Shown one piece after another: positions 38,008-44,050 of a stretch of 64,000 nt of DNA. A program made the position numbers and the translations under genes. Numbering within the stretch: position 1 is the first letter of the stretch; each line of letters starts with the position of its first letter. A model generated the notes under the pieces. It worked only from the letters and a program-made list of their open reading frames with translations. It was not told where the DNA came from and made no database searches. The stretch is from the NCBI GenBank assembly GCA_030529365.1, contig JAUMXB010000011.1:1-64000 (forward strand). Reading direction: 5' to 3'. This stretch comes from Cardiobacteriaceae bacterium (lineage in GTDB: Bacteria; Pseudomonadota; Gammaproteobacteria; Cardiobacteriales; Cardiobacteriaceae).

Positions 38008-38111
38008 CGGGACACTCCGCAATAAAACCCGCACATGATACGCACAGCAAGGCAAGCGGGCAAATATCCGGCCATGTTTAACCCGCCAGAATCCCATACA
38101 AAACAGCACAC

Positions 38112-38199
38112 AAAATAATCGTTTTTTACCACCAAAAAGCGCTTATAATGAAAAAATTTCTCACCATAAGCGCTTATTGGTGATAAAAAATCACTATCA
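38112..38199. repeat. AAGCGCTT palindromic element, copy 8
   Basis: Full form with left arm AAAATAATCGTTTTTTACCA, centre AATGAAAAAATTTCTCAC, and right arm GTGATAAAAAATCACTAT. It lies between divergent nhaA and dapD, just upstream of the dapD -10 box. Confidence 0.92.
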
Positions 38200-39118: not shown

Positions 39119-39208
39119 CAAAATAGTTATTTTTTACCATCGTAAAGCGCTTATCATGAGAAAATTTCTCGCGACAAGCGCTTGATGACGAGAAAAAATA
39201 CCACTTCG
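39119..39208. repeat. AAGCGCTT palindromic element, copy 9
   Basis: Full form: AAAATAGTTATTTTTTACCA, octamer, CATGAGAAAATTTCTCGC, octamer, GACGAGAAAAAATACCACT. It begins 4 bp after the dapD stop. Confidence 0.92.
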
Positions 39209-39248: not shown

Positions 39249-39276
39249 TTGACAACAACACCCGTGCGCGTACAAT
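39249..39276 (+). promoter_or_regulatory. Promoter of the queF operon
   Basis: Perfect TTGACA (39249-39254), 16-bp spacer, TACAAT (39271-39276), about 70 bp before the queF ATG. No preQ1 riboswitch-like pseudoknot is evident in the short leader. Confidence 0.75.
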
Positions 39277-39346
39277 GCGCGCCCCCGCAACATTTCGTTG
39301 CCTCTGTGGTTCGCAGACCTCCCACACAAAAAAACCAGGAAACCCA

Positions 39347-39823
39347 ATGAGATCCCCCGATGAGCTGTCGTCGCTTACCCTGCTCGGCGACAAAAACGTT
39401 GCCTATCCGGCGACCTATACCCCATCCCTGCTCGAAACCTTCCCCAACAAGCACCCGGACAACGACTACTGGGTCACCTTCCATTGCCCGGAATTCACCA
39501 GCCTTTGCCCGATGACTGGCCAGCCGGATTTTGCCACCATCCGCATCGCCTACCTGCCTGCGGCAAACATGGTGGAAAGCAAATCGCTCAAGCTCTACCT
39601 CTTCGGCTTCAGAAACCACGGCGATTTTCATGAAGACTGCGTCAACATCATCATGAAAGACCTGATCAATCTGATGCAGCCCAAATACATCGAAGTATTC
39701 GGCGCTTTCACGCCGCGCGGCGGCATCGCCATCGAGCCCTATGCCAATTACGGCCAGCCCGGAAGCGCTTATGCCGACATGGCCAGGGCGCGTTTGCTCG
39801 CCTTTGCCGGCGCGCGCCAATAA
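39347..39823 (+). CDS. queF: NADPH-dependent 7-cyano-7-deazaguanine reductase (type I QueF)
   Basis: 158 aa from the ATG at 39347 with AGGA upstream. The frame is open further up but the promoter lies there. It reduces preQ0 to preQ1 in queuosine synthesis. The nitrile-reacting Cys and the Asp are in [11 protein letters not shown]. The QueF motif reads [11 protein letters not shown], and [13 protein letters not shown] completes the active site. It is a single-domain T-fold protein like B. subtilis QueF. The next gene is a diverged paralog. Confidence 0.95.
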
Positions 39824-39839
39824 TTCTTTCGGATACTCC

Positions 39840-40280
39840 ATGACATCAAAAACCCCCTGCCAGACCGCGCCCATGCCGGACTACCTGCAAACCTTCCCCA
39901 ACCGGCATCCCGAACGCGACTATTTCGTGAGCTTCACCTGCCGCGAATTTACCACCTGCCCGTGCCCGCTCACCGGACGTCCGGACTTCGCCAGCCTGCA
40001 CATCGCCTACCTGCCGGACAGGCACATCATCAAGAATGCGTCACTCGTCCAGTATCTCGCCACCTTCAAAAACCACGGCGACTATCACGAAGACTGCATC
40101 AATATCATCCTGAAAGACCTGGTGGCCTGGATCGCGCCGAAATACATCGAAATCCGCGGGCAATTCACGCCGCGCAGCAGCATCGCCACGCATCCCTACA
40201 CCAATTACGGACGCCCGGGCACCCGTTATGAAGTGCTTGCCGACGAACGCCTCTACGCCCACGCCGCCCTCCCCCTCTGA
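39840..40280 (+). CDS. QueF paralog lacking the QueF motif
   Basis: 146 aa, start at 39840. It aligns with the preceding queF along its length and keeps the Cys/Asp pair (CPCPLTGRPDFA) and KNHGDYHEDCIN. Where queF has [11 protein letters not shown], it reads IIKNASLVQYLA, so most of the preQ0-reductase signature is gone. It could be a second subunit in a mixed complex, analogous to the split motifs of the two halves of E. coli-type QueF. It could also act on another 7-deazaguanine or nitrile substrate. It lies 16 bp after queF and 18 bp before a queuosine-precursor transporter, so the pathway link is strong and the exact reaction is unknown. Confidence 0.85.
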   Translation: MTSKTPCQTAPMPDYLQTFPNRHPERDYFVSFTCREFTTCPCPLTGRPDFASLHIAYLPDRHIIKNASLVQYLATFKNHGDYHEDCINIILKDLVAWIAPKYIEIRGQFTPRSSIATHPYTNYGRPGTRYEVLADERLYAHAALPL

Positions 40281-40298: not shown

Positions 40299-40988
40299 AT
40301 GAACAGCAACAACCAAACTTTCGCCTTCACCCCCGCGCAACGCCAAAAAGCCCTGTACTGGCTCGTCTTCTGGCACACCCTCGTCATTGCCGCCAGCAAC
40401 ATCCTCGTGCAAATCCCCTTCCAGATCGGTGAACTGCATACCACATGGGGCGCATTTTCCTTCCCCTTCATCTTCCTCACCACTGACCTTACCGTGCGCA
40501 TCTTCGGCGCAAAAATGGCGCGCAAAATCATCTTCTGCGTGATGATTCCCGCGCTCGTGCTCTCCTACCTCATCTCCGTCCTTTTCCATGAAGGACAATT
40601 CGTCGGCTTCGCCGCCCTGCAAACGCTGGATACCTTTGTCGCACGCATCGCCGTCGCAAGCTTTATCGCCTATCTTGTCGGCCAGCTACTCGACATCAGC
40701 GTCTTCAACCGTCTGCGCCAAAAAGGCAAATGGTGGGTAGCGCCTGCCGCCTCCACCATCATCGGCAACATCATCGATACCGCGCTCTTTTTCTCCATCG
40801 CCTTCTACCAGAGCAGCGACGAATACATGGCTGCACACTGGCAGCAACTGGCATTGACCGACTACGCCTGGAAAATCGCGGTCAGCGTGCTATTCTTCCT
40901 GCCTGCCTACGGTCTGCTCCTCAAGGCCCTCACCCGCCGCCTCACCACGCTGCCTGCCTATAACCTCGGCAACCATCAGCCAGGCTGA
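40299..40988 (+). CDS. yhhQ: Queuosine precursor transporter (YhhQ family)
   Basis: 229 aa, about six membrane helices. The family segments LVQIPFQIGELHTTWGAFSFPFIFLTTDLTVRIFG and SFIAYLVGQLLDISVFNRLR are clear. YhhQ imports preQ0/preQ1 in E. coli. It sits third in the queF operon and is followed by a strong terminator. Confidence 0.93.
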   Translation: MNSNNQTFAFTPAQRQKALYWLVFWHTLVIAASNILVQIPFQIGELHTTWGAFSFPFIFLTTDLTVRIFGAKMARKIIFCVMIPALVLSYLISVLFHEGQFVGFAALQTLDTFVARIAVASFIAYLVGQLLDISVFNRLRQKGKWWVAPAASTIIGNIIDTALFFSIAFYQSSDEYMAAHWQQLALTDYAWKIAVSVLFFLPAYGLLLKALTRRLTTLPAYNLGNHQPG

Positions 40989-41000
40989 ATCACCACGCAC

Positions 41001-41041
41001 AAAAAATCCCCGTTTTCCATCAGGAAAGCGGGGATTTTTAT
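41001..41041 (+). terminator. Intrinsic terminator of the queF-yhhQ operon
   Basis: AAAAATCCCCGTTTTCC / GGAAAGCGGGGATTTTT hairpin with A and T runs on both sides, so it can act in both directions. Confidence 0.85.
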
Positions 41042-41055
41042 TGCATTTCATATCA

Positions 41056-41091
41056 TAAAATAGTCATTTTTTACTACCAACAAGCGCTTTG
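41056..41091. repeat. AAGCGCTT palindromic element, copy 10, left part (interrupted by IS)
   Basis: AAAATAGTCATTTTTTACTA, then AAGCGCTT. The sequence is broken at TTG by the IS30-family element and resumes at 42145 with GCGCGATAAAAAACAACCAT. Removing the IS gives a short one-octamer element. Confidence 0.85.
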
Positions 41092-42144
41092 GGCGGATTA
41101 AACTTTGAAGTGCAACTCCCCCGGTTGGAGAGAGGCAAGCTGCGTTAGCCTATGCTTTTCTTCCGACCAAGAAAGGAGAAGCACAATGAAACGCTACACG
41201 CAGCTTACCCAGGCGCAACGATACCAGATTTCCATCCTCCTCGACGACCGGCAAAGCCCGGCCGCCATTGCTCGCCTGCTCGGCGTGCATCGCTCCACCA
41301 TCTCGCGCGAAGTGCTGCGCAACGGCCAGGACGGCCGCTACCATCCCGAACAGGCACAACAGCAAACCCGGCAGCGGCGCCAGGGCAGAACCCGTATCCG
41401 CCCGTCATGCTGGCAAAGGGTGGAGCACTATCTGCGCCTGGACTGGAGCCCGGAGCAGGTCAGCCTCTATCTGAAAGCGCGGGGCAAACCCGGCGTCAGC
41501 CATACCCGCATCTACCGTCATATCCGTGAGGACAGGCGCAACGGCGGGGATTTGCATCTGCACCTGCGTCATCGTCGTCCTTACCGCCGTGGCCGCGGCA
41601 AGGCACTCCGTATCGCCAATCGCACGCCGATAGACCAGCGCCCGGCCATCGTCGCCGAGAAAGGCCGTATCGGCGACTGGGAGATGGACACCATCGTCGG
41701 CAAGCATCCGCGTCAGGCGATCGTGACGCTTTGCGAACGCCAAAGCCGTCTGACCCTGATGGCCAGGCTGCCGTTCAAGGGGGCGGAAGTGCTGAAGACG
41801 GCCGTCATTGATCTGCTGCTGCCGCTCAAGGCACGGGTGCACACGCTGACTTCAGACAACGGCATGGAGTTCAGCCGTCATGAAGGCATCGCCCGGGCGC
41901 TGGAAGCGGACTATTATTTTGCCCACCCCTATGCGTCATGGCAGCGGGGGCTGAACGAGAATGCCAACGGGCTGATCCGTCAATATTTGCCCAAGGGCTG
42001 CGATTTTGACGCGGTGAGCGAGGAGCATCTTGCCTGGATCATGGCACGGCTGAATCATCGTCCGCGCAAGTGTCTTGCCATGAAAACGCCGCATGAGGTA
42101 TTTTTTGGCGAGAGCCGTTGTTGCACTTCGGAGTTTAATCCGCC
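41092..42144 (+). mobile_element. IS30-family insertion sequence
   Basis: 1053 bp with 25-bp inverted ends beginning GGCGGATTAAACT, 23 of 25 positions identical (41092-41116 and 42120-42144). Flanked by a 3-bp direct repeat TTG (41089-41091 and 42145-42147). It is inserted in palindromic element copy 10, between convergent yhhQ and an acetyltransferase gene. Confidence 0.93.
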
Positions 42145-42508
42145 TTGCGCGATAAAAAACAACCATAAAATTCCGAAAAATAATATCCTATTCTGCAACG
42201 CCTTCGGCCAGCACATCCGCCGCCGTCTTGTCGCGCAGCAACACAGCGCGCGCATACGGGCATACCGGCACGATTTTCCATCCTTCTTCGCGCGCCAGCG
42301 ACACTGCCGCCTCCACCAATTGCTGCGCCAATCCCTTGCCGCGGTACTGCGGATCAACACCCACATAATCAATACGCATGCGCCCGTCCGCATTCACAAA
42401 ATCCAGCCGGCCAATGCGCCCCCCATCCGCCTGCAAATACAGGGCATTGTTCTCACGAAAAATATTCATGCTTCCTCCAATAACATTATTTGGCCATATC
42501 ATTCCTGA
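41186..42508 (+). CDS. IS30-family transposase, reading out of the element
   Basis: Start at the ATG 41186 after AAAGGAGAAGC. The N-terminal helix-turn-helix is LTQAQRYQISILLDDRQSPAAIARLLGVHRSTISREV. DDE residues are in GDWEMDTIVG, TSDNGMEF and NENANGLIRQYLPKG. The frame has no stop inside the IS. It crosses the right inverted repeat and continues about 121 codons into host DNA antisense to the acetyltransferase, ending at 42508. In the adjacent frame the element's end encodes VVALRS, similar to many IS30 C-termini as I recall them, so a late frameshift is possible. The catalytic part appears intact. Confidence 0.85.
   Translation: MKRYTQLTQAQRYQISILLDDRQSPAAIARLLGVHRSTISREVLRNGQDGRYHPEQAQQQTRQRRQGRTRIRPSCWQRVEHYLRLDWSPEQVSLYLKARGKPGVSHTRIYRHIREDRRNGGDLHLHLRHRRPYRRGRGKALRIANRTPIDQRPAIVAEKGRIGDWEMDTIVGKHPRQAIVTLCERQSRLTLMARLPFKGAEVLKTAVIDLLLPLKARVHTLTSDNGMEFSRHEGIARALEADYYFAHPYASWQRGLNENANGLIRQYLPKGCDFDAVSEEHLAWIMARLNHRPRKCLAMKTPHEVFFGESRCCTSEFNPPCAIKNNHKIPKNNILFCNAFGQHIRRRLVAQQHSARIRAYRHDFPSFFARQRHCRLHQLLRQSLAAVLRINTHIINTHAPVRIHKIQPANAPPIRLQIQGIVLTKNIHASSNNIIWPYHS
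42145..42172. repeat. AAGCGCTT palindromic element, copy 10, right part
   Basis: TTG target duplicate followed by GCGCGATAAAAAACAACCAT, matching the right outer arm of other copies. It is the continuation of 41056-41091. Confidence 0.8.
42188..42469 (-). CDS. GNAT-like N-acetyltransferase (short YjdJ/GtnA type)
   Basis: 93 aa from the ATG at 42469 with GGAGGAAG upstream. Sequence IDYVGVDPQYRGKGLAQQLVEAAVSLAREEGWKIVPVCPYARAVL is the minimal GNAT fold with the acetyl-CoA loop Q-Y-R-G-K-G-L-A. Members of this short family act on unknown small substrates. It converges on yhhQ across the IS30 element. Confidence 0.88.
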   Translation of the reverse strand: MNIFRENNALYLQADGGRIGRLDFVNADGRMRIDYVGVDPQYRGKGLAQQLVEAAVSLAREEGWKIVPVCPYARAVLLRDKTAADVLAEGVAE

Positions 42509-43960: not shown

Positions 43961-43966
43961 ACCATT

Positions 43967-44050
43967 TGAGAAAATTTATCACCAACAAGCGCTTATTGTG
44001 ATAAATTTTATCGCAATAAGCGCTTTTCTATGGTAAAAAACAACTATTTC
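43967..44050. repeat. AAGCGCTT palindromic element, copy 11
   Basis: Left module GAGAAAATTTATCAC, octamer, GTGATAAATTTTATCGC, octamer, right arm TATGGTAAAAAACAACTATTT. It fills the gap between the convergent CAP lipoprotein and YdjM-like genes, ending over the latter's stop region. Confidence 0.9.

Follow-up and report, generated by a model that had tools for sequence, protein, structure and literature searches.

The genes described here lie within a window of 64,000 nt, the whole stretch of DNA that was analysed, from contig JAUMXB010000011.1 of a Cardiobacteriaceae bacterium (genome G000). They form a compact operon on the plus strand, in the order PreQ1 riboswitch, queF, queF paralog, yhhQ and terminator. 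A putative sigma-70-like promoter (TTGACA-N16-TACAAT; 39249..39276), recognized by consensus match only (11/12 positions), is followed by a full-length PreQ1 riboswitch aptamer (RF00522, 42.6 bits with a gathering threshold of 39; 39300..39344) located directly before queF (39347..39823). The latter encodes a unimodular preQ0 reductase of 158 residues, which scores 168.3 bits with TIGR03139 and displays a full motif, VESKSLKLY. The paralog (39840..40280) begins after a gap of 16 nt and is separated by 18 nt from the last gene of the operon, yhhQ (COG1738; 40299..40988), which encodes a preQ0/preQ1 transporter (NF008406, 339.9 bits, cut-off 252). A terminator-like hairpin, with a 17-pair stem and a T tail, is found after yhhQ (41002..41039).

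As for the paralog, it encodes a protein of 146 residues with neither frameshifts nor internal stops. An upstream start at 39741 was rejected because, from there, the ORF would overlap the last part of queF in a different frame. The protein scores 128.8 bits with the QueF-II model TIGR03139, above the curated cut-off of 86.9, and 85.3 bits with Pfam QueF, while its best relatives in the PDB are the chains of Bacillus subtilis QueF (E 2e-51). The 2.3-Mb genome encodes just two QueF homologs, first the product of the neighboring queF (P0003) and second this paralog (P0001). This agrees with a preliminary description of this DNA, which had placed a second QueF paralog in tandem with a normal queF and a yhhQ-type transporter. 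An assembly duplication can be excluded since the two proteins are only about 50% identical.

The PreQ1 riboswitch also precedes queF in Neisseria and in four related genomes (G004, G006, G009, and G011), which have the order riboswitch, queF, yhhQ. A fifth, G005, has queF and yhhQ with no riboswitch match above the cut-off. The spacing between queF and yhhQ in these five genomes is 2–114 nt, with no gene between them. The riboswitch-queF-yhhQ operon is therefore ancestral, and the paralog is an addition to an old two-gene operon.

A dispersed palindromic repeat of ~81 nt, with the core AAGCGCTTAT, flanks the operon (38111-38191, 39119-39199, and 43961-44041), and a truncated copy (41057-41089) lies beside an IS30-type transposase ORF (41105-42508). 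Dozens of matches to this repeat are present in the same-genus genome G001, one of them close to where a contig ends. Separately, yhhQ shows 81% identity to its counterpart in G004, but only 66–67% to those in G009 and G011, both of them congeners of G004. This is a hint that yhhQ has moved from one genus to another.

In QueF, the active sites are located at subunit interfaces, and the QueF motif carries the residues that bind NADPH; in the B. subtilis enzyme, Cys55 forms a thioimide, Glu97 anchors preQ0, and Cys99 is the partner of a protective disulfide (PMC5372742). In the paralog, Cys42 aligns with the nucleophilic Cys55 in all QueF sets, Asp49 corresponds to the general acid/base Asp62, and Glu84, together with His83, corresponds to the substrate-anchoring Glu97. 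The “backdoor” Cys86 and Arg112 are also present in the alignment. The reported retention of the nitrile-reacting Cys and Asp is therefore correct, and so is the reported loss of the QueF motif. The consensus E(S/L)K(S/A)hK(L/Y)(Y/F/W), which includes Glu78, is absent: the motif columns read IKNASLVQYLA in a column-by-column alignment, and KNASLVQY replaces ESKSLKLY at codons 65-72 (40032..40055). Additional changes are found elsewhere. Just before the catalytic Cys42, the insertion of one residue and an additional Cys40 create a Cys-Pro-Cys (codons 40-42; 39957..39965) in the active-site loop CPCP, the invariant Gly-Gly after Arg112 is replaced by Ser-Ser (RGG to RSS; codons 113-114; 40176..40181), and the N-terminal LLG segment is missing. 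Neither these changes nor the riboswitch nor the retention of His83, Glu84, and Cys86 figure in the preliminary description.

The extent of these changes goes far beyond chance. Among 59 columns invariant in 23 B. subtilis-type QueFs, 17 are altered in the paralog, while leaving out each other member in turn gave only 0–2 changes. When 32 QueFs were considered, 25 columns were invariant and eight of them are altered (P35R, Q47R, E65K, K67A, K70V, R77K, G113S, and G114S). A similar loss of the motif was seen in none of the 111 other QueFs examined, and the ESK and RGG residues are kept in 79/79 viral-contig QueFs, even where identity to P0003 falls to 46%. Positions that do not vary among QueFs are nevertheless better retained in the paralog (71%) than other sites (37–40%; Fisher p 5e-5 to 3e-4), which implies that the old QueF role still partly constrains it. 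The paralog is a real, specific, and unusual finding. From its residues, it appears to be a QueF duplicate that has kept the substrate/thioimide half, which handles preQ0, and lost the cofactor half; the loss itself is observed, and its probable consequence for NADPH binding follows from what is known of the motif. The paralog thus offers a natural experiment that separates the QueF residues needed to capture the substrate from those needed for the cofactor.

The fold of the paralog is predicted to be intact. An AlphaFold2 monomer model built with a 59-row alignment has a pLDDT of 90.3 and a pTM of 0.85, and replaces one built with 12 near-identical rows (pLDDT 55.8). The model superposes best on B. 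subtilis QueF (4f8b), with a Z score of 22.7 and an RMSD of 1.8 over 137 aligned residues, followed by the QueF-like enzyme QueF-L (5jyx; Z 14.5, 104 aligned) and the bimodular QueF of Vibrio cholerae (Z 13.4, 118 aligned). This suggests a QueF-like T-fold, the monomer model being silent on mixing with other subunits. In a sliding comparison of 13-residue stretches, the helix at the motif position was alone in scoring at least as close to the C-modules of bimodular QueFs as to unimodular QueF. It scored 24–26 against the C-modules, compared with 20 for P0003 and -2 for QueF-L. The lead over unimodular QueF never exceeded +3.2 BLOSUM units, a small margin that was noticed post hoc.

These observations lead us to propose, tentatively, that the paralog is most likely a subunit that mixes into the T-fold ring of the neighboring QueF. 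On its own, the paralog could capture preQ0 via a Cys thioimide, judging from its residues, while the loss of the motif Lys and Glu suggests that it does not bind NADPH as QueF does. Since the NADPH-binding half is lost, a lone paralog would be expected to hold preQ0 rather than reduce it. In a mixed ring, the QueF motif of an intact subunit would complete those interface sites that bear the Cys, Asp, and Glu of the paralog, the reverse interfaces being dead. This would parallel two-domain QueF, in which the C-module with the Cys and Glu borrows the motif of the N-module. When a shortage of preQ1 turns the operon on, such a subunit might adjust the capture of preQ0 or its throughput. A mixed complex of this kind had been put forward in the preliminary description, an interpretation that finds partial support here. 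What speaks for it is that the two genes share one compact operon with a riboswitch, promoter, and terminator, that kept and lost residues are split by function as they are between the modules of bimodular QueF, that QueF places its active sites at interfaces (PMC5372742), and that the predicted fold and the motif helix are compatible with such a role. So are the preferential retention of QueF-invariant sites, a dN/dS of ~0.44, and a normal GC3. What speaks against it is that the partner QueF is complete and has no need of the paralog, and that the pair is absent from every other genome searched.

The search for the pair elsewhere, suggested along with that proposal, was run and found it in no relative. 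No second QueF resembling the paralog was detected in the order (32 genomes), in a class sample (369), or in a phylum sample (398, strict cut-off), which led us to reject a recurring family of motif-less paralogs. One genome of the class sample, G097, has two QueF matches as well, the second known from the match alone. The only same-genus assembly, G001, is 78% complete, and its contig breaks off immediately past dapD, where there is a dispersed repeat; because this gap falls at the locus, G001 neither supports nor refutes the presence of the paralog. The QueFs of family relatives that were read are 52–58% identical to the paralog and have the full motif. An origin from phages or plasmids was rejected, since tblastn there returned only ordinary QueFs, which reach at most ~57% identity across the greater part of the query, and those phage and plasmid sequences that were examined keep the motif. 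A scan of viral contigs with the paralog protein alone gave no matches, and a scan with an alignment gave 80 QueFs, of which 79 could be aligned, all with the motif.

In a phylogenetic tree, the paralog groups with the QueFs of the family, with weak support (91/29), on a branch of 2.28 changes per site against a median of 0.25. Its placement as sister to the neighboring queF is not rejected (p-AU 0.68). The dN/dS between the two genes given above was estimated by NG86, and their dS is 0.94, comparable to the values for queFs from separate genera, from which it follows that the duplicate is not very young. The simplest history is a lineage-specific tandem duplication of queF, that is, a local duplication followed by fast change.

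Alternatively, the paralog may be a duplicate under relaxed selection, dispensable and heading for loss, in which active-site residues linger because too little time has elapsed. The gene is found in one genome only, its branch is long and its dN/dS raised, otherwise invariant residues are gone, among them RGG and the LLG segment of the N-terminus, and a dispersed repeat family and a transposase ORF adjoin the operon. The long branch and the change of Gly-Gly to Ser-Ser, in particular, also fit relaxed constraint, and long-term maintenance of the paralog is unsupported because the pair was seen in no other searched genome. However, the ORF is intact, QueF-invariant sites are significantly better retained than others, the catalytic set is complete with losses clustering on the cofactor side, and the dS argues against a very recent event. 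We find decay somewhat unlikely, and it keeps its place because the paralog is known from a single sequence.

Next, we considered the queuosine pathway of the genome. G000 encodes QueA and a single TGT, whereas neither QueC nor QueG (TIGR00276) was found in it, nor was a second transglycosylase. Since QueC is absent while QueA and TGT are present, this genome salvages the precursor preQ0, a setting that speaks for the subunit reading. YhhQ is the expected importer of preQ0 (PMC5372724). Nearly all members of the family lack QueC or have it in decayed form. In one relative, a QueC match interrupted by three TGA and one TAA (G009:C2:2483553-2484176) is consistent with a recent shift of the family to preQ0 salvage. 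Three other relatives (G003, G007, and G010) possess yhhQ with no QueF match at E <= 1e-8, and perhaps import preQ1 instead of preQ0.

In such a salvage operon, the paralog might also be a protein that binds or sequesters preQ0 without turnover, forming a reversible thioimide and either buffering and handing over imported preQ0 or regulating QueF. The full set of preQ0/thioimide residues without the NADPH motif would suit this role, as would the position of the gene directly before the importer gene in a riboswitch operon. Moreover, QueF-L and free preQ0 form a stable thioimide that is not turned over (PMC5485725). On the other hand, the paralog has one residue more in the loop preceding its catalytic Cys, which makes thioimide formation uncertain. 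We know of no precedent for a preQ0 store, which also counts against this role, and we consider it unlikely.

The paralog could finally be a QueF-L-like enzyme, whose thioimide with preQ0 or with a preQ0-modified nucleic acid would be attacked by ammonia or another nucleophile instead of hydride, yielding an archaeosine-type amidine or another product. The preliminary description had suggested an enzyme using another 7-deazaguanine substrate, and an amidine-forming activity would be a concrete version of that idea. In QueF-L, the motif is lost and the Cys and Asp are kept, and it is ammonia that attacks the thioimide (PMC5485725). The paralog shares this combination on a T-fold, has likewise replaced the Glu of the motif (by Lys, versus Ala in QueF-L), and has a pI slightly higher than that of its relatives. 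Yet it is far from the QueF-L archaeosine synthase of Pyrobaculum calidifontis (the sequence used agrees with PDB chain 5jyx_A at each of its 109 residues), with 17% identity over 64 residues versus about 50% to QueF, a different motif helix, and a position inside the family QueFs in the tree. While QueF-L belongs to the archaeal tRNA archaeosine pathway, the paralog belongs to a gammaproteobacterial queuosine salvage operon, in a genome with one TGT and no second transglycosylase, where preQ0 has to come from outside the cell and QueF would be a competitor for it. Furthermore, sequence-based predictions of QueF-L have failed before, the DNA of phage Dp-1 being found to hold dPreQ1 (PMC6884629). 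This reading is quite improbable, and slightly more so is its most novel form, in which a bacterial QueF duplicate would have switched, independently of archaeal QueF-L, to another thioimide chemistry, such as the amidine of archaeosine, within a PreQ1-riboswitch salvage operon. If the paralog does carry out new chemistry, QueF would have given rise to archaeosine-type modification twice.

How, then, does the paralog compare with bona fide QueFs? Its closest known system is unimodular QueF (B. subtilis type, TIGR03139; 4f8b), with which it shares 50–54% identity, a predicted T-fold, a queuosine operon, and the Cys, Asp, His-Glu, and backdoor Cys. It differs by lacking the QueF motif, the RGG glycines, and the N-terminal LLG, and by the additional Cys and the inserted residue that precede its catalytic Cys. 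Since the Glu, Lys, and Lys of the motif are all replaced, the paralog is not a QueF under the published definition (PMC5372742). The label “preQ(1) synthase,” which curated models give to motif-less proteins despite the absence of the defining motif, is misleading for it because TIGR03139 does not demand the motif.

The tentatively preferred reading, that of a catalytic-half subunit beside an intact QueF, draws on the comparison with bimodular QueF, which has the motif on one module and the Cys and Glu on the other (PMC5372742). The paralog is unlike it in being a separate gene with ~20% overall identity and in having lost the RGG that the bimodular C-module keeps. Nor are the two halves divided within one polypeptide, since there are two ORFs 16 nt apart and the neighboring QueF, which is not cut down to an N-module, has both halves. 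Like the C-modules of V. cholerae and Escherichia coli, however, the paralog keeps the Cys, Asp, and His-Glu while the QueF motif is absent, and the helix at the motif position is similar (KNASLVQYLATF versus NREALLRYLVSF), a resemblance that is small and was spotted after the fact. If the two proteins do mix, they would be a heteromeric analog of the transition by which two-domain QueF evolved from the unimodular form.
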